64,000 nt of DNA from Mitsuaria sp. GD03876 (lineage in GTDB: Bacteria > Pseudomonadota > Gammaproteobacteria > Burkholderiales > Burkholderiaceae_C). This document shows, piece after piece, positions 22,412 through 34,158 of the stretch (its first letter is position 1; each line of letters starts with the position of its first letter). The notes below the pieces were generated by a model. It made no database searches. It was not told the origin of the DNA and worked only from the letters and a program-made list of their open reading frames with translations. The stretch is from positions 62,001 through 126,000 of the forward strand of contig NZ_JAOCCU010000010.1 of NCBI RefSeq assembly GCF_029840635.1, written 5' to 3'. Position numbers and translations under genes: made by a program.

Positions 22412-22729
22412 TCAGCCGGCTGGCGCCGGCGCGCGCGCCAGATCGCGCAGCATGGACCAGGGATAGATGCCCCTCGCGTGGCCGTCGCTGAACCCGAGCC
22501 GCAACGCGTAATGCCCTACCAGGTCGGCCTCGATGAGCCGAATTCCTGGATCGACCACTGACGCCTCGCCCCGACGCGAGGCGGCGACGCAGTGGGCGCA
22601 ACGGCACGCCGCGCGCAGCGAGGTAGCGCTGAGCGTCAGCTCGCCGTCTGACCATCGCAGCCGGAGCTCGCTACCGGCGACCTCGATGCCCTCGGGCGCC
22701 TCCGATGCGCTCTGAACTCCGGCGCTCAT
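22412..22729 (-). CDS. DUF971 (gamma-butyrobetaine hydroxylase N-terminal-like) protein
   Basis: A 105-residue protein of the DUF971 family, the small metal-binding domain found alone, at the N-terminus of gamma-butyrobetaine hydroxylases, and fused to Mrp/ApbC iron-sulfur carriers. Visible hallmarks are LRLRWSDGELTLSATSLRAACRC (read in two parts around LRLRWSDG), the C-x-C-x2-C motif in CRCAHC, GHYALRLGFSDGHARGIYPW and LRDLA. It is the last gene of the eight-gene operon and overlaps the HEAT-repeat gene by four bases (ATGA). Known solitary members are linked to Fe-S protein maturation, which would suit an operon with a ferredoxin. The role here is inferred. Confidence 0.82.
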   Translation of the reverse strand: MSAGVQSASEAPEGIEVAGSELRLRWSDGELTLSATSLRAACRCAHCVAASRRGEASVVDPGIRLIEADLVGHYALRLGFSDGHARGIYPWSMLRDLARAPAPAG

Positions 22730-23697
22730 GACAACCGCTGGCGCGCCAGCCTCGCGGCCTTGCGCACCTCCGGATCCGGATCGGCGTCCGCGGCCTCCAG
22801 CGCTGGCAGCGCCTTCGCATCGCCGATCTCGCCCAGCGCGATCGCGGCCTCCTTGCGCAGGTTGCCGGCGCGCGCCGTCAGCGCCTCGATGAGCACCGGC
22901 AGCGCCTGCACGTCGCGCAGCCGGCCGAGCGACCGCGCCGCGCGCAGCTGGACTTGCCAGTACTCATCGGCCATCGCCTGCCTCAGCGCCTCGCAAGCCT
23001 CGCCCTGCCCCAGCTTGCCCAGCGTCGTCGCCGCCTCTTCGCGGACCTGCCACGCGGAGTCGCGAAGCGCCGCGCACAGCGCGGACAACACCGATGCCGC
23101 TTCGCCCGGCGACGCCAAGCCAAGCGCGCCAGCGGCCACGCGGCGCACCTCGGCATCCGCGTCTTCCGTGGCCAGGCCCGCGAGCGCAGGCAGCGACGGC
23201 GAATGCTTCAACCAACCCAACACGCCCACCGCCTCGCGGCGCACCGCCACGTCGGCATGCGCGAGCGCCATCGTCGCGGGCACCGCCGCCGCCGGGACGC
23301 GCAGCTCCTTGAGCGCGCGCAGCGCGGCCGCCGACACGAACGCATCCGCGTCATCCGCGCGGGACACGAGCCGCGCGCCCGCCACCGGATCCTTCAGCTC
23401 GGCCAGTGACTGCGCCGCTGCCTCGCGCACCTCCGCCTCGTCGCGGAGCGCATCGGCCAGCGCGTCGACCACGTCGCCGTCGTTCCAGCCCGCCAGCACG
23501 CGGGCGGCCTCGGCCCGGAGCGTCGCTTGCGGATCGCGGCGCAACACCGCCACCAACGCGGGCAGCAGGGCCTCGTCCTCCACGTCGGTGAAGTCGAGCA
23601 AGGCGACACGCCGCACGCCTGCGTCAGGGCTCGACAGGCGCTGGCGCAGGTCGTCGACGCGGGGATCGGTATCGGATGAAAGGAAGGTCATGGGCAT
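22726..23697 (-). CDS. HEAT-repeat protein
   Basis: A 323-residue solenoid made almost wholly of HEAT repeats of about 31 residues. Repeating units read LRRDPQATLRAEAARVLAGW, LRDEAEVREAAAQSLAELKD, LRDSAWQVREEAATTLGKLG and ADEYWQVQLRAARSLGRLRD. Such proteins bind other proteins; related ones act as phycobilin lyases or hydroxylases but no such active site is seen. It has no signal peptide and is probably cytoplasmic. It could help assemble or insert the cofactors of the flavoprotein/ferredoxin pair encoded upstream. The ATG at 23697 or 23691 may be the start; neither has a strong ribosome site. It follows the ATPase gene by about 97 bases. Confidence 0.85.
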   Translation of the reverse strand: MPMTFLSSDTDPRVDDLRQRLSSPDAGVRRVALLDFTDVEDEALLPALVAVLRRDPQATLRAEAARVLAGWNDGDVVDALADALRDEAEVREAAAQSLAELKDPVAGARLVSRADDADAFVSAAALRALKELRVPAAAVPATMALAHADVAVRREAVGVLGWLKHSPSLPALAGLATEDADAEVRRVAAGALGLASPGEAASVLSALCAALRDSAWQVREEAATTLGKLGQGEACEALRQAMADEYWQVQLRAARSLGRLRDVQALPVLIEALTARAGNLRKEAAIALGEIGDAKALPALEAADADPDPEVRKAARLARQRLS

Positions 23698-23794
23698 CAA
23701 AGGGGGGCCTGGGGACCAATGGAAGCAACCGAATCGATGGCGCCCATCAGGTCGATGGATCGAGGGGTCGATGGGATCGGGCAGTCGGACGACC

Positions 23795-24730
23795 TCAAAC
23801 GGCGAATCGCCATTGCGACGGCGTTGGCGGCGCGCCCAGCGGCGTGAGTCGCTCCAGCGGCGGCCCGTCCGTGTCGTGCCGCAGCAGCGCGAGGCAGCGC
23901 CGCTTGAGCGCGACGAACGCAGGATCGGTGAGGTGCTCCGCGCGGCGCGGGCGCTCGAACGGCACGTGCAGCGCCTCGACGATGCGCCCCGGCCGCGCGC
24001 TCATCACCAGCACGCGATCGGCCAGGAACAGCGCTTCGTCGATGTCGTGGGTGACGAAGACCACCGTCGGCGACAACCGCGACCACAGCGACAGCAGCAG
24101 TTCCTGCATCCGCGACCGCGTCAACGCGTCCAGCGCGCCGAAGGGTTCGTCCATCAGCAGCACGCGCGGCCGGTTGATCAGCACGCGTGCGATCTCGACG
24201 CGCTGCTGCATGCCGCCGGACAGCTCGCGCGGGTAGCGGTGCTCGAAGCCGGACAGGTCGACGAGGTCGAGCAACTCGCGAGCTTCGCGCTCGCGCGTCG
24301 CGCGGTCGACGCCCTTCATCTTCAAGCCGTAGGCGACGTTGCCGAGCACCGTCTTCCACGGAAACAGCGTGTGCTGCTGGAACACCAGCCCACGCGCGGG
24401 ATCGGGCCCGACGATGGACGCACCGTCCACGCGCAGCTCGCCACGCGCGATCCGCAGGTGCCCCGCGAGCGCGCCCAGCAGCGTCGACTTGCCGCAGCCC
24501 GACGGTCCCAGCAGGCAGATGAACTCCCCGGGCGCGACGTCGATCGACACGTCGTGCAGGACCTCGAAGCGCGCGGCGCCCTGCCCCACCTCGATGCTGA
24601 CGCGGTCGACCGCGACATGGCCGCTCGACGGCCTCGGCCGAGGCGGCGCTTGTGGCGGCGACGGCAACGGCGCTTGAAGCGATCGCGCCTGCGGCGGCGC
24701 CGCTCGCTCCGACAGCAACGGCGCCGTCAT
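23795..24730 (-). CDS. ABC transporter ATP-binding protein (nitrate/sulfonate/taurine class)
   Basis: A 311-residue ATPase of the SsuB/TauB/NrtD class. After a 45-residue Pro/Ala-rich head it has Walker A GPSGCGKST, the Q-loop (RGLVFQQHTLFPW), signature LSGGMQQRVEIARVL, Walker B VLLMDEPFGALD and the switch His in FVTHDIDEALFLADR. This subclass imports small anions or pyrimidines. It overlaps the permease gene by four bases (ATGA). The start at 24730 is fixed by that overlap. Confidence 0.92.
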   Translation of the reverse strand: MTAPLLSERAAPPQARSLQAPLPSPPQAPPRPRPSSGHVAVDRVSIEVGQGAARFEVLHDVSIDVAPGEFICLLGPSGCGKSTLLGALAGHLRIARGELRVDGASIVGPDPARGLVFQQHTLFPWKTVLGNVAYGLKMKGVDRATREREARELLDLVDLSGFEHRYPRELSGGMQQRVEIARVLINRPRVLLMDEPFGALDALTRSRMQELLLSLWSRLSPTVVFVTHDIDEALFLADRVLVMSARPGRIVEALHVPFERPRRAEHLTDPAFVALKRRCLALLRHDTDGPPLERLTPLGAPPTPSQWRFAV

Positions 24731-25617
24731 TGCGCGCCTCGCTGCGGCCGGTACCACGGCATCCAATGCCTCCCGGCCCACTGGATCAACGCGCTGCTGC
24801 CCATGCCAAGCGCCCCAATCAACAGCATGCCGACGACGATGTTCGGGTAGTTCTGCACCGTGTACGACTCCCAGGTGAAGTAGCCGATGCCGTACTGGCC
24901 GGCGATCATTTCCGCGGTCACCAGGCAGAACCAGCAGGTCCCCATGCCGATCGACAGCCCGGTGACGATGCTGGGCGCCGCGCCCGGCGCGATCACCTCG
25001 AGGAACAACCGCGCGCGCCGCGTGCCCAGGCTGCGCGCCGAGGCCACGAGCCGCGCGTCGACCGCCTCGGCGCCGTGGATCGTGTTCAGCAGGATCGGGA
25101 ACACCGCGCCGGTGAAGGTGATGAACACCATGCTGCCCTCCGACGACGGGAACATCAGGATCGCCAGCGGGATCCACGCCACCGCGGGGATCGGCCGCAG
25201 CACCTCCAGCGGCGGCAGCAACGCATCCCGCGCCCAGCGCGAACGCCCGACCAGCAGCCCGAGCCCGATGCCCACCAACGCCGCCGCGCCGAAGCCCAGG
25301 CCGACTCGCAGCAGGCTGCTCGTCAGATGCGCCACGAGCTTGGGCGAACGCAGCAGCTGCCATGCCGCCTCCAGCACCTCGGCGGGTGGCGGCACGTTGG
25401 CGAAGGTGATGACACCGAGGTTCCACCGCGCGGTCGCGGCCAGGTGCCACAACACGACGCACACCACGATCGAGCCGACGCGTAGCGCCAAGCCGCCGAT
25501 TGGCACCGGCCGGCGCCCGCGGTGATCCGGAGGAGACGCCGATGCGGACGCCGATGCCGATGCCGATGCCGAAGTCGACGCCGTACCGACGGGGATGGCG
25601 GTGGGGAGCGCGCTCAT
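24727..25617 (-). CDS. ABC transporter permease (nitrate/sulfonate/taurine class)
   Basis: A 296-residue inner-membrane permease of the SsuC/TauC class with about six helices after a low-complexity head. The EAA-type loop reads EAVDARLVASARSLGTRRARLF followed by GAAPSIVTGLSIGMG (about residues 185-225), the docking site for the ATPase. The first 30 residues hold an alternating Ser-Ala run encoded by a six-base repeat (25535-25572), unusual for this family. It lies 12 bases after the binding-protein gene and overlaps the ATPase gene. Confidence 0.9.
   Translation of the reverse strand: MSALPTAIPVGTASTSASASASASASASPPDHRGRRPVPIGGLALRVGSIVVCVVLWHLAATARWNLGVITFANVPPPAEVLEAAWQLLRSPKLVAHLTSSLLRVGLGFGAAALVGIGLGLLVGRSRWARDALLPPLEVLRPIPAVAWIPLAILMFPSSEGSMVFITFTGAVFPILLNTIHGAEAVDARLVASARSLGTRRARLFLEVIAPGAAPSIVTGLSIGMGTCWFCLVTAEMIAGQYGIGYFTWESYTVQNYPNIVVGMLLIGALGMGSSALIQWAGRHWMPWYRPQRGAQ
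25535..25572. repeat. Hexanucleotide repeat in the permease N-terminus
   Basis: Imperfect GCCGAT/GGACGC units run in tandem within codons 16-28 of the permease and encode alternating Ser and Ala. Because the unit is two codons long, gain or loss of copies would keep the frame. Confidence 0.7.
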
Positions 25618-25629
25618 CGCATCCGCCGC

Positions 25630-27045
25630 TCAGGACGCCGGCTTCACGGCCGCCTTCGCGCCGGCGAAGTCCAGCACGCGGCCGCGGTTGGCCGACGCGT
25701 AGGCCGCGGCCGTGTCCTTCTGCAGGAAGGCGCTCAACTGCCCCTTCCCGTCGATCGCGTACCAGCTGGTCGGCGCCAGCAGCTTGATGCGCTGGATCAG
25801 GTCATGCACGTACACCGCGCGCGCCTTGCCGCCGCCGGCCTCGATCCGGCGCAGGTCGGCCAGCGCGCCTTCGATGCTCGCGTAGTGGCGCACCTTGGGC
25901 TCGCCCTGCACCCAGATGCCGGCCACGCGCTGCAGGTCCACGATCGGCTTCCCGGTCGTCGCGTCGACCGCCTTCAACGGCAGCTTGTCCTTGTTGGCCA
26001 GCCGCTGCTCGTAGTTCAGCCCCGCCTGCTTGAACGCGGCGCGGAGGTAGCGGTCGTCGACGAAGGTCTCGGCATTGAGCGGCGAATCTCGCCCCATCAG
26101 CTTGAGCGTCTCGATCGAGGTCTTCAGCGCCTGCCGGTACTCCGGCTTCCAGGTGAAGTCTCGCGTCTGCAGCCCCTGCGGCCCGTGATAGAGGTAGTTC
26201 ACCGCCGCGTCGATGCCGGTGACCTTCTCGATCAGCTCGCTGTACTTCTCGGGCTCGGCGGCGATGAGCCGATCGGCCTCGATGGCCGCGCGCAGGAAGG
26301 CGACGACCACCTCCGGATACCGCTCCGCGTAGGCCGCGTTCACCAGCGAGCCGTGGTACGTCGGCGTCTGGGCCTGCGCGCCGTCGTAGATCTTGCGCGC
26401 GACGCCGCGATGCTCGAACAGCTCGACGAAGGGCACGAAGTCCGCGTGCGCCTCGATCTTGCCGGCCTGCAGCGCGGGCCCGGCGACCTCGGGGGCCTGC
26501 GTGATGATGGTCACGTCCTTCTGTGGATCCCAGCCCTGGGCCGCCACCGCGCGCAGCAGCATGCCGTGCGCCGTGGACGCGAACGGCACCGAGATCGTGT
26601 GCCCCTTGAGCTCCGACAGCAGCGTGACCTTGGAGTCGCGCGGCACCACGATGCCGTTGCCGCTGCCCAGCGTGCTGCCCGACAGCACGGTGATGAACAC
26701 GCTGCGCTTGCCCGCCTTCAGGAAGGCCGCGCCGTTGTTGGAACCGGGGAAGTCGGCCATCGAGCCGATGTCCAGCTTGTCCGCGACCATCTCGTTGGTC
26801 AGCGGCGCGCCGGAGGTGAAGTTCTTCCACTGGATGTCGTAGCTGACGTCCTTGTACCGGCCGTCGCGCGGCAGGTACTTCTCCAGCAGCTTCAGCTCGC
26901 GGATCAGCAAACCGCCGGTGGCGCAGTTGATCGTCGTGTCCTGCGTGCCGATGGCCACGCGGATGGTCTCGGCCGACGCGCCGGCGGTGACGCCGGCGAG
27001 GATGACCGCCAGCACGGCGGCGCTCAGGGATCGGATGGGGTTCAC
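25630..27045 (-). CDS. ABC transporter substrate-binding protein (NMT1/SsuA-like) with NosL-like C-terminal extension
   Basis: A 471-residue periplasmic protein. A signal peptide (1-25, ending ASA) precedes a type-II periplasmic-binding fold of the nitrate/sulfonate/taurine and NMT1 kind: IRVAIGTQDTTINCATGGLL, DIGSMADFPGSNNGA, GNGIVVPRDSKV, KGHTISVPFASTAHGMLLRA and ALQAGKIEAHADFVPF. Family members are about 320-340 residues; here about 90 extra residues end the protein. That tail (about 385-471: ARAVYVHDLIQRIKL, TSWYAIDGKGQ, FLQKDTAAAYASANRGRVL) resembles the NosL accessory-protein pattern of V-D, W-A and an AxxFA--GG-VL ending. The ligand is unknown; context suggests a small anion. It is the first ABC gene after the ferredoxin. 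Confidence 0.85.
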   Translation of the reverse strand: MNPIRSLSAAVLAVILAGVTAGASAETIRVAIGTQDTTINCATGGLLIRELKLLEKYLPRDGRYKDVSYDIQWKNFTSGAPLTNEMVADKLDIGSMADFPGSNNGAAFLKAGKRSVFITVLSGSTLGSGNGIVVPRDSKVTLLSELKGHTISVPFASTAHGMLLRAVAAQGWDPQKDVTIITQAPEVAGPALQAGKIEAHADFVPFVELFEHRGVARKIYDGAQAQTPTYHGSLVNAAYAERYPEVVVAFLRAAIEADRLIAAEPEKYSELIEKVTGIDAAVNYLYHGPQGLQTRDFTWKPEYRQALKTSIETLKLMGRDSPLNAETFVDDRYLRAAFKQAGLNYEQRLANKDKLPLKAVDATTGKPIVDLQRVAGIWVQGEPKVRHYASIEGALADLRRIEAGGGKARAVYVHDLIQRIKLLAPTSWYAIDGKGQLSAFLQKDTAAAYASANRGRVLDFAGAKAAVKPAS

Positions 27046-27058
27046 GGGCTCTCCAGGG

Positions 27059-27304
27059 TCAACGCAGCAGGTAGGGGATGTCGACGCGCACCGCGCCGGT
27101 CGGGCAGTCCTTCTCGCAGGGCATGCAGTACCAGCACTCGTCGAACTTCATGTAGGCCGCGCCCTTGACCAGGTCGATGGCCAGGACGTCGAGCGGGCAC
27201 ACGTCCACGCAGACGGTGCAGCCCTTGTCGGCGATGCACTTGTCGGCGTCCACGGTGACGGGAACGGCGCTCGGATGGAACGCCAGGGGAGCGATGGCAG
27301 TCAT
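27059..27304 (-). CDS. AprB-like ferredoxin with two [4Fe-4S] clusters
   Basis: An 81-residue ferredoxin. Two cysteine clusters are visible: CIADKGCTVCVDVCP and CWYCMPCEKDCPTGAV. The first has a longer C-x5-C-x2-C-x3-CP spacing. The second, CWxCxxC with a following aromatic and CP-x-GA, is the hallmark of the beta subunit of adenylylsulfate reductase (CWECYSC in AprB) rather than of ordinary 2[4Fe-4S] ferredoxins. AprB has a long C-terminal tail that wraps the alpha subunit; it is missing here. It overlaps the flavoprotein gene by four bases, so the two are made together and probably form a complex. Confidence 0.88.
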   Translation of the reverse strand: MTAIAPLAFHPSAVPVTVDADKCIADKGCTVCVDVCPLDVLAIDLVKGAAYMKFDECWYCMPCEKDCPTGAVRVDIPYLLR

Positions 27305-29037
27305 GCGGGAAGGGCCTCGGCGGGAGTGGCGATGCGCAGGTGCCGGTACGCGTGGCGCTCGGCATCGGCGATGGGGACGATGTAGGGCTCGATGGCGCGC
27401 TTGAAGCTGACCATCTCGCCGCGTTCGTCTTTCTTCAGCTGCGCGTGGCAGAACCAGTTCGCGTCGTCGCGCTCGGGGAAGTCGACGCGCGCGTGGTACA
27501 GGCCCCAGCGGCTCTCGGTGCGGTACAGCGAGGCCCGCGCCGCCATCTCCGCGCAGTCGCGGATCGCGTGCACCTCCAGCGCCCGCATCAGCTCGTGCGG
27601 CTCGCGCGCCTTCAGGCGCGACAGGTCCTCGCGGATCGCCTCGAAGCGCTCCAGGCCGATCGCCATCTTGCGGGTCACCTTCGGCGGCTGCAGGTAGTCG
27701 TTGACCATGCGGCGCAGCTTGTATTCGACCTGGTTGGGCGGCAGGCCGTCCTCGCGCAGCAGCGGCGCCCAGACGCGGCGGCGCTCGTCCTCGACCTGGC
27801 CCGCGTCGACCGCGGCGAAGTCGTGCCCGGCGCTGAAGCGCGCGCTGCTCTCGCCGGCCAGCTTGCCGTAGACGAAGGCGCCCAGCATGTAGTTGTGCGG
27901 CACGCAGGCCATGTCGCCGGCCGCATGCAGGCCCGGCACCGTCGTGCGCGCGTGCTCGTCCACCCAGACGCCGGAGGCCGAGTGTCCGCTGCACAGGCCG
28001 ATCTCGGAGATGTGCATCTCGACCATGCGCTCGCGGTAGTCGGTGCCGCGCCCGGCGTGGAAGCGGCCCCGGCTGGGCCGCTCGTTGGTGTGCAGGATGG
28101 TCTCGATGGCGGCGATCGTCTCCTCGGCCAGGTGGTCGAGCTTGAGGAACACCGGGCCCTTGCCGCCCTGCAGCTCCTGATAGAACTCCCACATCATCTG
28201 GCCGCTCCAGTAGTCGCACTCGATGAAGCGCTGGCCCTCGGCGTTGGTCGTGTAGCCGCCGAAGGGGCCGGTGACGTAGGCGCAGGCGGGGCCGTTGTAG
28301 TCCTTGATCAGCGGGTTGATCTGGAAGCACTCCAGCCCCGAGAGCTCTGCCCCCGCGTGGTACGCCATCGCGTAGCCGTCGCCTGCGTTGGTCGGGTTCT
28401 CGTAGGTCCCGAACAGGTAGCCCGAGGCCGGCAGCCCCAGCCGGCCCGCCGCGCCGCAGCTCAGCACCACGGCCTTGGCGCGGATGACGTGGAAGTCGGC
28501 GGTGCGGCAATCGAAGCCCATCACGCCGCAGACGCGGCCGTCGGCGGCGGTGAGCAGCCGGGTCGCGACCAGCCGGTTGGTGACCTCGACCCGGGTGCGC
28601 TTGAGCTGCCGGTACAGCACCTTCTTGATGTCGTGCCCTTCCGGCATCGGCAGCACGTAGCTGCCCATGTGGTGCACCTTCTTGACGGCGTAGTCGCCGG
28701 TCTCGTCCTTCTCGAAGCGCACGCCCCAGCGGTCGAGCTCCTCGATCATCGCGAAGCTGTCGCGGGCATAGGCCATCACCGTCTTCTGGTTGACGATGCC
28801 GTCGTTGGCCAGCGTGATCTCGCGCACGTACTGCTCGGGCGTCGCGTGGCCGGGGATGATGGCGTTGTTCAGGCCGTCCATGCCCATCGAGATCGCGCCG
28901 CTGCGCTTGACGTTGGCCTTGTCCAGCAGCAGCACGCGCAGCGACGGATCGGCCTGCTTGGCCTTGACCGCGGCCATCGGTCCGGCGGTGCCGCCGCCGA
29001 CGACGACCACGTCGTATTCATGCTCGAAGGTCTGCAT
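27301..29037 (-). CDS. AprA-like FAD oxidoreductase (fumarate reductase/APS reductase superfamily)
   Basis: A 578-residue flavoprotein of the fumarate reductase/succinate dehydrogenase superfamily. The dinucleotide motif is DVVVVGGGTAGPMAAVKAK. The LLLDKANVKRSGAISMGMDG segment, ENPTNAGDGYAMAYHAGAEL, and SGHSASGVWVDEHARTTVPG with LHAAGDMACVPHN match the adenylylsulfate reductase alpha subunit more closely than fumarate reductase, as does pairing with an AprB-like ferredoxin. It is shorter than AprA (about 650). No sulfate adenylyltransferase or Qmo genes lie nearby, and the partner ABC transporter is of the nitrate/sulfonate type. The substrate may therefore be an imported compound rather than APS. 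Cytoplasmic, no signal peptide. It follows the regulator gene by one base. Confidence 0.85.
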   Translation of the reverse strand: MQTFEHEYDVVVVGGGTAGPMAAVKAKQADPSLRVLLLDKANVKRSGAISMGMDGLNNAIIPGHATPEQYVREITLANDGIVNQKTVMAYARDSFAMIEELDRWGVRFEKDETGDYAVKKVHHMGSYVLPMPEGHDIKKVLYRQLKRTRVEVTNRLVATRLLTAADGRVCGVMGFDCRTADFHVIRAKAVVLSCGAAGRLGLPASGYLFGTYENPTNAGDGYAMAYHAGAELSGLECFQINPLIKDYNGPACAYVTGPFGGYTTNAEGQRFIECDYWSGQMMWEFYQELQGGKGPVFLKLDHLAEETIAAIETILHTNERPSRGRFHAGRGTDYRERMVEMHISEIGLCSGHSASGVWVDEHARTTVPGLHAAGDMACVPHNYMLGAFVYGKLAGESSARFSAGHDFAAVDAGQVEDERRRVWAPLLREDGLPPNQVEYKLRRMVNDYLQPPKVTRKMAIGLERFEAIREDLSRLKAREPHELMRALEVHAIRDCAEMAARASLYRTESRWGLYHARVDFPERDDANWFCHAQLKKDERGEMVSFKRAIEPYIVPIADAERHAYRHLRIATPAEALPA

Positions 29038-29038
29038 C

Positions 29039-29803
29039 TCAGCGCTCCTGGCGGTGACGGTCCACGCGCAGCCGGTACTGGAAGGCGTCGGCGCGGAAGT
29101 GGAGGTATTCGAAGTCGATCGGCGTGCCGCTTGCGTCGTGCGTGAGCCGCTCGATGCGCAGCACCGGCGCGCCCTCGCCGATGCCCAGCGTCGCGGCCAG
29201 CTCGGCGTCGGCCAGGGTCGCGTCGATCTTCAGGTCGGCATGGCCCAACGGCAGGCCGCATTCGTTCTCGAGGATCAGGAAGATGTCGCGGGTGACGAGG
29301 TCGGCCTGCGCCAGCCGCTTGCCGATCGCCGCCGGCACGTAGGTGATCTCCAGCGACACCGGCTCGCGGTTGAGCAGCCGCACGCGGCGGATCTCGGCGA
29401 CCGGGGCTCCCTCGGCCAGGTTCAGGCGGGCGGCGACCTCGCGATCGGCGTCGAGGAAGCGCAGGCCCTGCAGCTGGTTGAGCACCTCGTAGCCCATCGC
29501 CGACATCGATTCGGCGAAGCCCATCAGGCTGCTGACGTTCTGGAAGGCCTTGGGCCGCGAGACGAAGCTGCCCTTGCCCTGCAGCGTGTAGATCAGCCCC
29601 TCGCGCTGCAGCGCGGCCAGCGCCTGGCGCAGCGTGATGCGGCTGACGCCGAAGGCCACGCCGAGTTCGCTCTCGGACGGGAGCTGCGACAGCGGCGGGT
29701 AGCTGCCGTCGAGGATCCGGCCGCGCAGGATCTCCTTGATCCGCGCGTGCAGCGGCGCGCTGGGCAGCGCGATGAGTTCAGCGGAGGAAGAGGGAACGTG
29801 CAT
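29039..29803 (-). CDS. GntR-family regulator with UTRA domain (HutC subfamily)
   Basis: A 254-residue regulator. The winged helix (about residues 17-82) has ARIKEILRGRILDGSY, LPSESELGVAFGVSRITLRQ and ALAALQREGLIYTLQGKGSFV. The UTRA ligand domain (about 95-245) has the chorismate-lyase-like fold with LNLAEGAPVAEIRRVRLLNR and PVSLEITYVPA, and ends IDFEYLHFRADAFQYRL. It is the first gene of the minus-strand operon and is likely an autorepressor released by the operon's substrate or product. It reads directly into the flavoprotein gene. Confidence 0.9.
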   Translation of the reverse strand: MHVPSSSAELIALPSAPLHARIKEILRGRILDGSYPPLSQLPSESELGVAFGVSRITLRQALAALQREGLIYTLQGKGSFVSRPKAFQNVSSLMGFAESMSAMGYEVLNQLQGLRFLDADREVAARLNLAEGAPVAEIRRVRLLNREPVSLEITYVPAAIGKRLAQADLVTRDIFLILENECGLPLGHADLKIDATLADAELAATLGIGEGAPVLRIERLTHDASGTPIDFEYLHFRADAFQYRLRVDRHRQER

Positions 29804-29924
29804 CCCGGAGCCACCTGTTATGACGAGTGGCTCGCAGCGTAGACAGGCGTCCGCGCGGCGCGAAGTTGGATTCGCGCATATCGATATCGGGTGGATGCCG
29901 CGATGGGCATCCCGCGGGTCGGGC

Positions 29925-31922
29925 TCAGCGCGCCAGCTCGACCCGCCGCGCGTTCAGGCCGTCCGACACGATGAACTCGAAGCGGCCGCCGGCCGGCAGC
30001 GCCTGCGTGTCCAGCGTCGCCTCGCCGCCTTCCAGGTCCTGCGCCAGGTTCAGGCGTCGCGTGCCGTCGGTCCAGGTCACGGTCAGGAACGGCGCGGCCT
30101 GCGCGTGCCATCGCACCGACGCCTCGCCGGCGGCTTCCGTCATCCGGACCTGCGCGCCCGCCACGCCGGAGGTCCCTCCGGCGGGCACGGCGCGCCTGGT
30201 GCGCCCGCCGTTCGCCCGGGACGGCGTCGGCACCTGCCGCAGCATCACGCCGTCACGAAGGACGCTGATGCTGGCGATGGCATCGGCCCTGGGCACGATC
30301 GCGCTGAAGTGCCGCACGTCGTCGCGATGCCCCAGCGACCGGGCGGTGAACGCGACATCCCGGATCTCGCCGCTCGTCGTCTGCACGCGCAGCAGGTACG
30401 GGCCGGCCGACGCGTCCGGCTTGGCGAACAGCGCCTTCACCGGACTGAACTCGACCTGGCCGTCCCGCAGGAGCCCGCTGATCAGCAGCACCTCCCGCGC
30501 GGCCTTCTCGACGCTTGCCGTCATCCCGGCCGCGGTGGATGCCGACGCGCCGGCCGCCACGCCGCCGCGCCCGCCCGTCACGTGGCGCTGCATCTTGCGG
30601 TAGTGATAGTCCGAGAACACCGTTCCGTCGCAATAGCTCATGACATCGTGGCGATCGGTCGGGCGTGGGTCGTGGAAGCGCTTCGTGTCCGACAGGTAGC
30701 TCCAGACATGTCGCCCCGGCTTTCCCAGGTTGGCATTGGGATACGGGTAGTCGGCATTCAGCGAGCCGGCGCCGCCGCACGGGGCGTGGTCCAGCGAGAA
30801 GTTGTGACCCAGTTCGTGCACGACCGTGTCGCGCACCGCGTCCGGATGGTCCGGCCGGTCCGCGATGACCGCGGCGTTCCCCGGCCAGAAGGCGACGCCC
30901 GTGTCACCGCGGTTGCTTTCCTTGGGAAGGAAGCCGACGTAGTGATCCTGGCTCGTCGCGCCCTCGATGTGTCGCAGCTCTTCCATCTCGACCAGGACCT
31001 GGTCGAAGGCGCGCCTCCATGCCGTTCCGTCGGTCGGCAGCGTCTTCACCTTGCCCGACACGAAGACCGGACGCGATGTCGACGTCACCGTCGACACCGG
31101 AAACAGCGCCTGCAGACGCGCGGTCAACGCCGCCATGTCCGCCGGCGTCCGGCCCGTCGCGCCGCCGAGACGCACCGGGATGGGCACGAGCCGCATCGGC
31201 CCGGCGACGCCCACCCGCGGCGTGAAGCTCCGCGCGGGGAGGCCGGCGATGGTGACCGTCACCCTCAGGCCCGGCTTCACCAGCTCCGCCGGGATGGTGA
31301 CGCTGTAGGCGTCAAGGAGGGTCTGCGTCTCCGACACCGTCATGGGCAGCAGGTCATACAGCGGCTTGCTCAGTGCCAGTTCCCGGCTGCCGCCGTCGAT
31401 GGTGTTGTCGATGCGCACGCTCGCGGCCCGATGGGAGCCGTCCCGGTCCGCCGTCGTCACATTGACCTTCAGCAGCACCGCCTTGTCGGCCACCAGCTCC
31501 AGGTCGCCGTCGGCGCTGTCGTACAGCATGGTCTGCGCGAACTGCACGGACGCCATCATCAGGTTCGGTCTCGTGTAGACGAGGTACGAGGACGTGATGT
31601 CGTTGAAGCCGATGTCAACGAGCTTCCTGACGTTCTCGGTCAGCTGGACCGAGCGACCGCGATGGTTGGCGTGTTCGAACAGCTCGACGACGAGGCCCGC
31701 CGGAACGCGGACCGAGGAGATCGCGTCGTTCCACCTGGGGCCGACCCAAGGGTTGCTGTGCCTCCCGCACAGGGCGAGGTCTTCGTAATGCGGGTGCGCG
31801 AAGAAGCAGGGTTCCGAGCCCGCCGCCGCGTCGGTGGCCGCGAACGCCGCGAGTAGGAGGAACGACGTCGCCACCGGAGGGCGACGGAGGAGATGCCGAC
31901 GGCGTGTCGTGAAGAGGCGCAT
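29925..31922 (-). CDS. Secreted metzincin zinc protease with beta/gamma-crystallin-like N-terminus (copy A)
   Basis: A 665-residue exported protease. A basic RRR/RRPP head and a hydrophobic stretch ending DAAAG make the signal. The next 80 residues resemble a beta/gamma-crystallin or inhibitor-I36 Greek-key domain (CFFAHPHYEDLALCG, WNDAISSVRVPAGLVVELFE, GRSVQL). The catalytic domain has HELGHNFSLDH (HExxHxxxxxH, about residue 370) and a Met-turn in HDVMSYCDGT, as in peptidase family M66 and other metzincins. The end is a beta-sandwich-like region (RFEFIVSDGLNARRVELAR). It lies 199 bases downstream of copy B in the same direction. The start at 31922 or 31952 is uncertain. Confidence 0.82.
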   Translation of the reverse strand: MRLFTTRRRHLLRRPPVATSFLLLAAFAATDAAAGSEPCFFAHPHYEDLALCGRHSNPWVGPRWNDAISSVRVPAGLVVELFEHANHRGRSVQLTENVRKLVDIGFNDITSSYLVYTRPNLMMASVQFAQTMLYDSADGDLELVADKAVLLKVNVTTADRDGSHRAASVRIDNTIDGGSRELALSKPLYDLLPMTVSETQTLLDAYSVTIPAELVKPGLRVTVTIAGLPARSFTPRVGVAGPMRLVPIPVRLGGATGRTPADMAALTARLQALFPVSTVTSTSRPVFVSGKVKTLPTDGTAWRRAFDQVLVEMEELRHIEGATSQDHYVGFLPKESNRGDTGVAFWPGNAAVIADRPDHPDAVRDTVVHELGHNFSLDHAPCGGAGSLNADYPYPNANLGKPGRHVWSYLSDTKRFHDPRPTDRHDVMSYCDGTVFSDYHYRKMQRHVTGGRGGVAAGASASTAAGMTASVEKAAREVLLISGLLRDGQVEFSPVKALFAKPDASAGPYLLRVQTTSGEIRDVAFTARSLGHRDDVRHFSAIVPRADAIASISVLRDGVMLRQVPTPSRANGGRTRRAVPAGGTSGVAGAQVRMTEAAGEASVRWHAQAAPFLTVTWTDGTRRLNLAQDLEGGEATLDTQALPAGGRFEFIVSDGLNARRVELAR

Positions 31923-32121
31923 GCGGGACGATCGTTGTTGCGGGGCCGGCATCGATGCCGAGCCGCGTCAGTGACACGCCGGTGGCCAGGCATCGCCGGC
32001 TTTGCGATGACACCGATCGGGGAAAGTCGCCCGCCGCGCGCCCCATGAACGACAACGGGGAACCGGACGTTCCCGCCCGATTCCCCGAAGGTCATGCGCC
32101 CGCGAGGGCGCACGGTGACGC

Positions 32122-34158
32122 TCAGCGCGCCAGTTCGATCCGCTGCGCGTTCAGGCCATCCGACACGATGAACTCGAAGCGGCCGCCGGCCGGCAGCTCA
32201 TGCGTGTCCAGCGTCGCCTCGCCGCCCTGCAGGTCTTGCGCCAGGTTCAGGCGCCGCGTGCCGTCGGTCCAGGTCACGCTCAGGAACGGCGTCGCCTCCG
32301 CGTCCCAGCGCAGCACCGCCTTGCCGCCGGCCTCGCTCAGGCGCACCAGCGCGCGGCTCGCGCCGCTGGCCAGGGCCTTCTGGCGCGCGTTGCTCACCCG
32401 CGCCTGTGCCTGGCCCAGCGTCGCGCCGTCGCGCAGCACGCTGATGCTGGCGATGTTGTCCAGCTTGGGCACCAGCACGCTGAAGTGCAGCAGCTCGCCG
32501 TCATGGTCCAGCGCCTGCGCGGTGAACGCGACCTCCTTGACGTCGCCCGTCACCGTCTGCACGCGCAGCACGTACGGGCCGCCGGCCGCGTCGGGCTTGG
32601 CCACCAGCGTCTTGACCGGGTTGATCTCGACTTGCTTGCCGCGGATGCTGCCGCTGACCAGCAGCACGTCCTGCGGCGACACCTTGGCATCGCCGTCCGA
32701 CGAGGCCGCGGCGCCCTTGACCTGCGCGGCCGCGGCGTCGCCCGGCGTCAGGAAGGTCTGCATCAGGCGGTAGTTGTAGTCGGAGAACACCGTGCCGCCG
32801 CAGTAGCTCATGATGTCGTGGCGGTCGGTCGGACGCGGGTCGTAGAACGTGTTGGTGTCCGACAGGTAGCTCCAGATGTAGCGGCCCGGCTTGCCCAGGT
32901 TGGCATCGGGGTACGGGTACTTCGGATCCGGCGAGCCGGCGCCGCCGCAGGCCGCGTGCGGCAGCGAGAAGTTGTGGCCCAGCTCGTGCGCCACGACGTC
33001 GCGCACGGTGTCCGGATTGCTCGGCATGTCGAAGCCGACGGCCGAGGTGCCCGGCACGTAGCCCAGGCCCGCCAGGCCCCAGGTGCGCTTGGGGATGAAG
33101 CCGAAGTAGTAGTCCTGGCGACCGGCGCCCTCGATGCGGTGCAGGTCGTTGAGCTCGCCCAGGATCTTGCCGAACGCGTCGCTCCATTGCGCGTCGGTGG
33201 CCGGCAGCGAGGTCACCTTGGCCGACACGAAGGTCGGGTGCGAGCGCAGCGTCACCGACGACACCGGGAACAGCGCGCGCAGGTGCGCGCTCTGGTCGAC
33301 CGGCAACTGGCCGGTGGTGCCGGCGATCTTCACCGGGATCGGCACGAAGCGCATCGCCACGCCGCCGCCCACGCGCGGCGTGAAGCTCTGCGCCGCGGCG
33401 CCGGCGACGTTGACCGTCACCTTCAGGCCGCTCTTGACCAACTCCGCCGGCACGCTGACGCTGTAGGCGTCGTCGAAGGACTGCGTCTCCGACACCGTCG
33501 TGGGCAGGCCGCGGCGCGGCGCGCTCAGCACCAGGTCGCGGCTGCTGCCGTCCAGCGTGTTGTCGATGCGCACGGTGGCCGTCGGCGCGGCGGTGCCGGC
33601 CGGGGCGGTCACGTTGACCTTCAGCAGCGTCGGCTTGTTGGCCACCAGCACCAGCTGGCTGTCGCTGCTGCCGTACAGCATGGACTGCGCGAACTGCACC
33701 GAGGCCAGCGTCACCTTCGCGGCGGCCGGCGGCGTCGTGATCTTCAGCGACGAGGTGGCGTCGTTGAAGCCGGCGCCGACCAGGTTGGCGTTGTCCGCGC
33801 TCAGCGTGATCGAGCGGCCGCCGTAGTTGATGTCGGCGAAGAGCTGCACCTTGAAGCCGGCCGGCACCCGGACCGACGACACGCGGTCGTTCCAGGCGTT
33901 GCCGATCCAGGCGGAGCTCGCGCTCAGGCAGGTGCTGGCGCCGCCGTAGTTCACGTGCTCGTAGAAGCAGACCTGCGTCGCCGCGGCGGCCGCGGTGCCG
34001 GAGACCGCGCCGGTGGCGCCGGTCTGGCGGCCCGCCGCGACCGCGGGATCGTTGGCGTCGCCGCCGCCGCAACCGGCGAGCACGCCGGCCAGCGCCAGCG
34101 ACAGGGCGAGCGGATGCAGACGAGGGGCGCCGCCCGGGCGCCTCGTGGTGATCGACAT
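32122..34158 (-). CDS. Secreted metzincin zinc protease with beta/gamma-crystallin-like N-terminus (copy B), lipoprotein
   Basis: A 678-residue protease with a lipoprotein signal (LAGVLAGC, Cys about residue 30). Its N-terminal beta/gamma-crystallin-like domain is better preserved than in copy A (VCFYEHVNYGGASTCL, WNDRVSSVRVPAGFKVQLFA, INYGGRSITLSAD). The catalytic site reads HELGHNFSLPHAAC (about residue 389), with HDIMSYCGGTVFSDYNYR as the Met-turn. Copy A matches it along the whole length. A surface-anchored enzyme that cuts host or plant glycoproteins, as StcE-type M66 enzymes do, is a family-based guess. It is divergent from the chitinase gene, with a 314-base gap between them. Confidence 0.85.
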   Translation of the reverse strand: MSITTRRPGGAPRLHPLALSLALAGVLAGCGGGDANDPAVAAGRQTGATGAVSGTAAAAATQVCFYEHVNYGGASTCLSASSAWIGNAWNDRVSSVRVPAGFKVQLFADINYGGRSITLSADNANLVGAGFNDATSSLKITTPPAAAKVTLASVQFAQSMLYGSSDSQLVLVANKPTLLKVNVTAPAGTAAPTATVRIDNTLDGSSRDLVLSAPRRGLPTTVSETQSFDDAYSVSVPAELVKSGLKVTVNVAGAAAQSFTPRVGGGVAMRFVPIPVKIAGTTGQLPVDQSAHLRALFPVSSVTLRSHPTFVSAKVTSLPATDAQWSDAFGKILGELNDLHRIEGAGRQDYYFGFIPKRTWGLAGLGYVPGTSAVGFDMPSNPDTVRDVVAHELGHNFSLPHAACGGAGSPDPKYPYPDANLGKPGRYIWSYLSDTNTFYDPRPTDRHDIMSYCGGTVFSDYNYRLMQTFLTPGDAAAAQVKGAAASSDGDAKVSPQDVLLVSGSIRGKQVEINPVKTLVAKPDAAGGPYVLRVQTVTGDVKEVAFTAQALDHDGELLHFSVLVPKLDNIASISVLRDGATLGQAQARVSNARQKALASGASRALVRLSEAGGKAVLRWDAEATPFLSVTWTDGTRRLNLAQDLQGGEATLDTHELPAGGRFEFIVSDGLNAQRIELAR

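Follow-up and report, generated by a model that had tools for sequence, protein, structure and literature searches.

The subject of this work is a row of eight genes in a 64,000-nucleotide stretch of Mitsuaria sp. GD03876 (contig NZ_JAOCCU010000010.1, positions 62,001 to 126,000; called the window below), which according to the open reading frame (ORF) list and the family scans occupy window positions 22412-29803, all on the minus strand. They encode a GntR/UTRA regulator, an AprA-like flavoprotein, an AprB-like ferredoxin, the binding protein, permease and ATPase of an ATP-binding cassette (ABC) importer, a HEAT-repeat protein and a DUF971 protein, and each was located and assigned to its family just as a preliminary description of this DNA had it. 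We hold it very probable that the operon serves sulfur scavenging, and the best explanation of it as a whole, to which we give about an even chance, is a scavenging system for sulfate starvation in which sulfite is released reductively. In this explanation the substrate class is taken from homology, the direction of the electrons from neighbouring genes, and the sulfite product from the chemistry of the enzyme family.

The eight genes form a unit that recurs well beyond the window. We surveyed 109 loci, made up of the 80 most similar among the matches listed (from named genomes), 14 from a phylum-wide draw and 15 chosen plasmid records; the survey is biased by this make-up, and two of its entries, L115 and L130, stand for a single place on one record, which leaves 108 distinct places. 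The same eight-gene order, with the GntR/UTRA gene first, was found in 63 of the 109, which upholds the expectation of the preliminary description that the set would stay together on a search of other genomes. Taken gene by gene, the flavoprotein and the ferredoxin are present in all 109 loci, the HEAT gene in 108, the ATPase in 103, the permease in 102, the binding protein in 100, the GntR gene in 88 and the DUF971 gene in 81. The phylum-drawn loci have both DUF971 and HEAT genes in 14 of 14, with an importer within 12 kb in 13 of 14, and the core is kept in four genomes of the window's own family drawn regardless of context (L157-L160, which make 113 loci with the survey; L158 is probably L059, so that three are new). 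Recurrence in the survey and in these own-family genomes, drawn without regard to context, means that the set stands together more often than by chance. Adjacency is not universal: five other genes lie between flavoprotein and ferredoxin in Nostoc (L138), and about 5 kb of amidase and transporter genes are inserted into the cassette of L157.

In six operon-bearing relatives the operon belongs to a sulfate-starvation regulon, since the same upstream motif precedes sulfate-, taurine- and methionine-uptake genes. This motif, which contains TTCGTT and lies 5' of the operator of the GntR gene, was found in 45 of 89 upstream regions against three shuffled ones, and its core CATAW-N9-AW-N4-TTCGTTC has 48 sites in the six relatives against 19 for the reversed pattern. 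Among 30 sites that were read, six are those of this operon, one per genome, and 14 of the remaining 24 precede a gene for sulfur uptake or a cysteine/methionine gene: Sbp (sulfate-binding) four times, MetQ three times, TauD-type genes twice, and once each TauA, a taurine-type ATPase, CysT, a cystathionine-synthase-like gene and serine acetyltransferase, some of the sites being the same site in two genomes. Thirteen of the 14 were named by scan, with the taurine-type ATPase, the cystathionine-synthase-like gene and one TauD-type gene (L189) below the model cut-offs, and the remaining one (L184), whose scan gave no family, by eye; at other motif sites the scans of L179 and L181 gave no family, and two of the 24 sites have no ORF. 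We infer that an activator of the CysB/SsuR type binds this motif. In the window its counterpart is a diverged element, GATATCGATATGCGCGAATCCAACTTCG (29861-29888, minus strand), with position and shape as in the sister locus L049. Across 93 regions the motif was found in 11 with an indel-tolerant pattern (shuffled mean 0.37) and in 15 with a strict one; its weight matrix, having been derived from 20 of these regions, is biased in their favour.

Closer to the operon lies a second element, the palindromic GntR-type operator ACTCGTCATAACAGGT (29813-29828, no strand assigned), 10-25 bases 5' of the start of the HutC-type GntR/UTRA regulator (29039-29803, minus strand; Pfam UTRA 4.8e-38, GntR 3e-19). 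It agrees at 13 of 16 positions with the consensus ACYTGTCATRACARGT, and it is the sole site at one mismatch or fewer in the whole 6.36-Mb genome. Before the GntR gene this consensus is matched at 11 or more of 16 positions in 65 of 89 upstream regions; after shuffling 3 of 89 reach that level, and none of 88 control regions does. The regulator probably acts as a repressor. A wider regulon of this operator was considered and rejected, as its pattern occurs at one to three places per genome in six relatives against zero to four for the backwards pattern, and in the own genome at the operon alone. Two relatives have two tandem TauD-family genes directly 5' of the GntR gene, with the operator between (G146:C30:88010-89944 and G058:C1:5219244-5221163).

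A sulfonate-class compound is also the probable ligand of the importer, if the relatives of its binding protein (25630-27045, minus strand) are a guide. A profile of 49 homologues of this SsuA/TauA-class (NMT1-type) protein finds TauA as the top solved structure at 6.2e-26, followed by 2x26, 3e4r and 3uif at 1.4e-20 to 4.8e-18; 2x26 and 3uif were deposited as sulfonate-binding and 3e4r as 'Nitrate transport protein', which we take to be an alkanesulfonate binder, while no other nitrate or bicarbonate chain does better than 3.6e-4. With TauA and sulfonate binders as the best solved relatives, the earlier proposal that the operon has its own importer of the sulfonate class stands. The permease (24727-25617, minus strand) is of the NtrB/SsuC/TauC type and the ATPase (23795-24730, minus strand) of the TauB/NtrCD type by family scans, so that all three components are of the same class as in SsuABC and TauABC; unlike those, the window binding protein is 471 residues long, has a NosL-like C-terminal domain and stays below the model cut-offs for SsuA (TIGR01728; 107.4 bits, cut-off 163.5) and TauA. 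Its length falls within 430-540 residues in 99 of the 101 loci with a binding-protein ORF. The C-terminal part (residues about 362-467) matches NosL 7og7 at 3e-4 by profile; against the NosL Pfam model a cyanobacterial binding protein passes at 24.1 versus 24.0 bits, and the window protein alone does not (E 0.15). Separately, cyanobacterial LysR regulators of about 670 residues lie beside the cassette in three loci (L132 7652-9652, L139 6379-8415, L147 6637-8652); that of L132 contains a stretch with 33% identity to the binding protein of the operon and may possibly sense the imported compound directly.

The flavoprotein (27301-29037, minus strand) belongs to the NCBIfam family PRK08275 (NF006131), which it matches with 1112.7 bits, over the curated cut-off of 587, and for which literature searches on PRK08275 and PRK13800 found no established function. 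From its sequence the pair appears to be neither an adenosine 5'-phosphosulfate (APS) reductase nor a succinate/fumarate enzyme. Against the aprA model TIGR02061 the flavoprotein scores 177.7 bits, short of the cut-off of 641.75 that true AprA controls pass with 1085 and 980, and it is far under the cut-offs of the sdhA and frdA models. The nearest solved chain is the alpha chain of 3'-phosphoadenosine 5'-phosphosulfate (PAPS) reductase 8a8o (5.3e-67), then AprA (1.7e-41), then SdhA (1.7e-28). The preliminary description had called the two proteins an AprAB-like redox pair, and this order of relatives, together with AprB among the relatives of the ferredoxin, agrees with it. It had also asked for a tree that could place the flavoprotein inside a fumarate-reductase group; in our unrooted tree, whose rows included four SdhA and one NadB and no FrdA, AprA with PAPS reductase forms one supported group and the SdhA rows another, both on long branches, and the flavoprotein family falls in neither, thus outside the SdhA group. 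Such a tree is silent on kinship with the AprA or the SdhA side, which the sequence searches alone carry. A single origin of the family is not rejected (approximately unbiased test, p-AU 0.412), with one change in 52% of bootstrap trees, and is weakly supported.

The pocket of the flavoprotein is shared across the family. In its alignment N74, K267-D268 and H398 are kept from AprA, while AprA W234, R265 and Y95 (A. fulgidus numbering), which we take to belong to the APS pocket, have given way to Y, L and E in the window, and the E141 region has an insertion. The SdhA-type motifs, presumably the sites of the covalent-FAD His, the substrate His (QFHPT), the catalytic Arg (RDVV) and the Arg of GANRLGGNS, read RSG, QINPL, GQMM and PHNYM instead (FAD, flavin adenine dinucleotide). 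In an alignment of 110 rows (the window and 109 others), the window residue is shared by at least 98% of the rows at 235 of 578 positions, including C237, N241, P242, L243, K245, D246, Y247, N248, C252, Y254, W277, H352, H381 and N382; N241, K245, D246, Y247 and C252 are identical in all 110, and so are Y212 and L243, the two residues that replace Trp and Arg. This strict, family-specific pocket, common to Burkholderiales, cyanobacteria and one actinobacterium, suggests one specific substrate.

It would be logical to set the pair beside the enzymes that it resembles. With the M. thermolithotrophicus PAPS reductase 8a8o it has in common the FAD alpha chain with a ferredoxin beta chain, the N (AprA N74), the K-D pair and the H (H398), whereas the Trp and Arg of the sulfate pocket are kept there and are Tyr and Leu in the window flavoprotein; the window operon moreover has its own importer, and no Sat is encoded in its genome. 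With AprAB it shares the subunit plan and a ferredoxin with CWxC, and differs in staying under the aprA and aprB cut-offs, in the replaced pocket residues and in the lack of sat. The absence of sat had been remarked in the preliminary description, and it extends to the whole genome, where the ATP-sulfurylase family PF01747 is absent, with 5 of 14 control genomes positive. Succinate dehydrogenase and fumarate reductase flavoproteins have the same FAD_binding_2 and Succ_DH_flav_C domains, yet the window flavoprotein lacks their catalytic residues and lies outside the SdhA group.

The ferredoxin (27059-27304, minus strand) has eight Cys in two cluster motifs, CIADKGCTVCVDVC and CWYCMPCEKDC, as expected of a 2[4Fe-4S] protein resembling AprB, in which, we assume, the CWxC motif is found. 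Ten relatives that were compared likewise have eight Cys, together with CWYC or CWFC, the first motif being shorter in L132, L133 and L138. AprB is among its solved relatives, with 3gyx_B at 5e-8 (second of 27) and 1jnr_B at 5e-7, and against the aprB model TIGR02060 it scores 36.1 bits, short of the cut-off of 135.65. Genes for ferredoxin:NADP reductase (FNR) and for the ferredoxin FdxA are each near the cassette in 7 of 109 loci; with the neighbour that resembles an NAD(P)H oxidoreductase, these genes point to a supply of electrons to the redox pair. The latter neighbour is seen on A. caldus pTcM1 (L134 6361-17497), where GntR, flavoprotein, ferredoxin and HEAT genes are followed by FdxA and a 1153-residue oxidoreductase with glutamate-synthase-beta-like and dihydroorotate-dehydrogenase-B-like parts, and where importer-like genes come further on, on the opposite strand.

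The genes around the cassette, called by a simple ORF rule with no gene finder, often have a link to sulfur. With tblastn seeds, at least one sulfur-linked gene was found in the flanks of 41 of 109 loci (22 of 54 genus labels), and in 25 loci (19 genus labels) when luciferase-type, SfnB-like and Sbp seeds were left aside. Twelve of the 109 loci, under 10 genus labels, have TauD-type genes near the cassette, where the density of such genes (36 in 41.6 Mb) would predict about 1.3; in L077 and L081 a row of tauA, tauB, a permease and a TauD-type gene follows 3' of DUF971 on the same strand, tauA and tauB of L077 being over the model cut-offs. Luciferase-type monooxygenase genes occur in 8 of 109 loci, one counted twice. 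A family 2A encapsulin with its cysteine desulfurase cargo gene is near the cassette in L059, L119 and L125, shell and cargo being over the cut-off in L125 and named by similarity in the other two. Of the sulfite/sulfate exporters, YeiH was found in six loci and TauE/SafE in four, on cyanobacterial records and, for YeiH, also in three genomes of the genus g82 and, for TauE, in Aquabacterium (L145). In the Pfam tally of neighbours, which covered 113 of 282 proteins within 5 kb chosen mostly by nearness, the top family is LysR, which is common anyway.

Taken together, we propose the following scheme. The ABC importer would take up a sulfonate-class organosulfur anion, and the small 2[4Fe-4S] ferredoxin would carry electrons to the FAD of the AprA-like flavoprotein. 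This enzyme would reductively free sulfite from the imported compound by attack of FAD N5 on sulfur, as proposed for APS and PAPS reductase; the sulfite would enter ordinary cysteine synthesis. Passages of PMC10322725 give the catalytic residues proposed for APS reductase as kept in the methanogen PAPS reductase, with FAD N5 attacking the sulfur. We put reductive sulfite release by the flavoenzyme a little below an even chance. Bound to its own operator, the GntR/UTRA protein would keep the operon repressed as long as no ligand is present, and in the relatives a site for a sulfur-starvation activator would lie further upstream. The HEAT protein would be a partner or assembly subunit of the flavoprotein, and DUF971 (Mrp/NBP35 in cyanobacteria) would help to load the Fe-S clusters.

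A number of observations weigh against this scheme. At ten of the 24 other motif sites no recognised sulfur gene follows, and the control for the motif is a count of the 19 sites of the reversed pattern, not of gene content. The window element has diverged so far that the weight matrix of the relatives scores it at -6.5, and the exact core pattern has no site in the own genome, where its control has three, so that the regulon is shown in the relatives only. No sulfur-linked seed matched in the flanks examined of 68 of the 109 loci, the TauD-type proteins that were scanned are under the taurine dioxygenase cut-off, and FNR and FdxA are near the cassette only in a minority of loci. The APS-pocket residues W234, R265 and Y95 are not kept, so that the chemistry may differ. 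Other signs point to nitrogen: a sigma-54-like site at two mismatches or fewer in 14 of 89 upstream regions against 2 of 89 shuffled (the window region does not have it, at four mismatches); amidase PRK06169 and/or allophanate-hydrolase-like genes in 8 of 113 loci from unrelated hosts (L042, L066, L079, L099, L138, L140, L157, L159); a formamidase in L103; and an ammonium transporter with glnK in L145.

These last signs would be expected if an amide- or urea-like compound were imported and reduced and its products hydrolysed by the amidases, the more so as such amidase and/or allophanate-hydrolase-like genes lie inside the operon of L157 (3950-9417) and, in a shorter copy, of L159. We consider such nitrogen use improbable, however, as 105 of 113 loci have no amidase or allophanate-hydrolase-like match, the upstream motif links the operon to sulfate uptake genes and the binding protein falls among those for taurine and sulfonates; in L042, L099 and L157 the amidase set comes with an SsuA-like binding protein of its own (with weaker matches in L066 and L079), which may mean another substrate. 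The preliminary description had left a sulfur or a nitrogen compound open; the regulon motif, the relatives of the binding protein and the neighbours now favour sulfur, and nitrogen, though still possible, is favoured less. A sulfur compound that also bears nitrogen would reconcile both kinds of neighbours, which is a speculation. The direction of the electrons can be questioned too: AprAB runs in reverse in sulfur oxidisers and several homologues in the flavoprotein superfamily are dehydrogenases, so that the pair might pass substrate electrons to the ferredoxin. With FNR, FdxA and NAD(P)H-oxidoreductase neighbours that favour electron supply, an assimilatory regulon in the relatives and no sat in the genome, we find an oxidative direction quite improbable. 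That the flavoprotein is a stray paralogue of succinate dehydrogenase or fumarate reductase, as the NCBIfam product name 'fumarate reductase/succinate dehydrogenase flavoprotein subunit' would have it, is to our mind next to negligible: other residues stand in place of the SdhA covalent-FAD His, substrate His and catalytic Arg, the SdhA rows are a separate supported group in the tree, and no SdhB-like or membrane-anchor partner is among the eight scanned proteins.

There is one described system that comes near. AsfA and AsfB are presented, in the parts of PMC4267179 and PMC2864759 on which we draw, as a reductase/ferredoxin pair for oxygenolytic use of arylsulfonates, with a sulfonate importer. 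By analogy, the window pair may be an electron module that feeds an oxygenase encoded elsewhere, which would cleave the C-S bond of the imported sulfonate. Apart from the description of AsfA and AsfB as such a pair, the upstream motif of the probable C. metallidurans AsfA and the TauD-type and luciferase-type genes near the cassette speak for it. We hold it rather unlikely all the same: the conserved set includes no oxygenase; the operator is unique in the own genome, so the repressor probably controls no oxygenase elsewhere there, with two TauD-family genes lying just 5' of the operator in two relatives; and a pocket strict across phyla, in 110 of 110 rows, is expected of a substrate-specific enzyme and not of an electron donor.

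The comparison itself was made with the probable AsfA of C. metallidurans CH34 (L137 9882-11863, NC_007974.2), which is unannotated and was identified from its gene pair. Like the AsfAB(C)/AsfR system (P. putida S-313; C. metallidurans), the window operon pairs a FAD protein from the fumarate-reductase superfamily with a 2[4Fe-4S]-type ferredoxin encoded directly after it, and a sulfonate-type ABC importer lies nearby; control by sulfate limitation is described for AsfAB, and the probable CH34 AsfA has the same upstream motif at 17.7 bits, where the best of 88 shuffled regions reaches 7 and the other 13 upstream regions scored alongside at most 6.8 bits. The differences concern the protein itself, which falls on the SdhA/NadB side of the tree, on a very long and unsure branch, and is without the family pocket; the regulator, described as LysR for AsfAB and GntR in the window; and the accessory genes, no HEAT or DUF971 gene having been noticed by eye among the ORFs beside the probable AsfA, where no scan was made. 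Judged by this probable AsfA, orthology looks unlikely and the likeness is kept as an analogy: on the C. metallidurans replicon with AsfA/AsfB the window flavoprotein has two weak matches only (2.9e-14 and 3.9e-8), the probable AsfA being the one at 3.9e-8. Orthologues of this probable AsfA at 1e-30 were found in none of four genomes (G000, G170, G062 and G054), a search without positive control. AsfAB is, then, the closest described system and a distant cousin. Desaturase-like proteins were noticed by eye beside the probable AsfA (L137 11984-13015) and behind a sulfur motif site (L179 479-1465, for which the scan gave no NCBIfam family); they could possibly be the oxygenase of the Asf route.

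The preliminary description had known of no described pathway with this gene set. As regards the eight genes together it was right, for our literature searches found no description of them; it had missed the described AsfAB pair with its sulfonate importer. The cassette may be regarded as a variant of sulfur redox modules of the AprAB/AsfAB type for which we found no description.

The sulfite-releasing scheme brings us to a wider suggestion, put forward tentatively and on comparative grounds: that a reductive desulfonase independent of oxygen may be widespread in soil bacteria and cyanobacteria, in the form of an enzyme related to AprAB that has its own importer and assembly factors and frees sulfite from one specific natural organosulfur compound. 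If so, it would run in parallel to the routes of SsuD, TauD and Asf, which are oxygenolytic. According to the review PMC4267179, more than 95% of the sulfur in soil is organic, with sulfonates a major form, and the desulfonation route described there is a mono-oxygenase system. The conserved AprAB-like cassette, whose flavoprotein is at present called 'fumarate reductase' by default, would then be an unassigned part of the sulfur cycle. Which substrate it uses can be tested directly, given its single operator, strict pocket and dedicated binding protein.

The last two genes, for the HEAT-repeat protein (22726-23700, minus strand; HEAT_2 9.2e-47, and a match to the tail of the NF010374 profile) and for the DUF971/GBBH-like_N protein (22412-22729, minus strand; PF06155 70.4 bits), would encode maturation factors, as the preliminary description supposed. 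In line with this, the HEAT protein is fused to the flavoprotein in family PRK13800; the fusion of Tsukamurella (L133), the one survey locus of 109 without a separate HEAT gene, has 893 residues and scores 1568 against a cut-off of 1196. Carriers of the Mrp/NBP35 type lie in the cassette of the four cyanobacterial records, where a DUF971 match was not found, which is in line with Fe-S loading as the shared job of the two, and some other loci have neither. Overlaps of four bases join ferredoxin and flavoprotein, ATPase and permease, and DUF971 and HEAT genes.

The distribution of the cassette is patchy. Of 80 own-family genomes 5 have a flavoprotein above the model cut-off, and of 299 genomes sampled across the window's phylum 15 do, both counts including the own genome; at 60-80% identity it is present in 54 of 228 matched plasmid records. 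The cassette also stands on cyanobacterial, rhizobial and actinobacterial records. In the plasmid collection, where some records are chromosome-sized, the flavoprotein family was found in rhizobia, Caballeronia, Methylobacterium, cyanobacteria and Acinetobacter, so that the cassette is probably mobile. Just 5' of the operon, at 29925-34158 of the window, there are two tandem minus-strand paralogues with a HELGHN motif, which we take to be zinc-protease-like.

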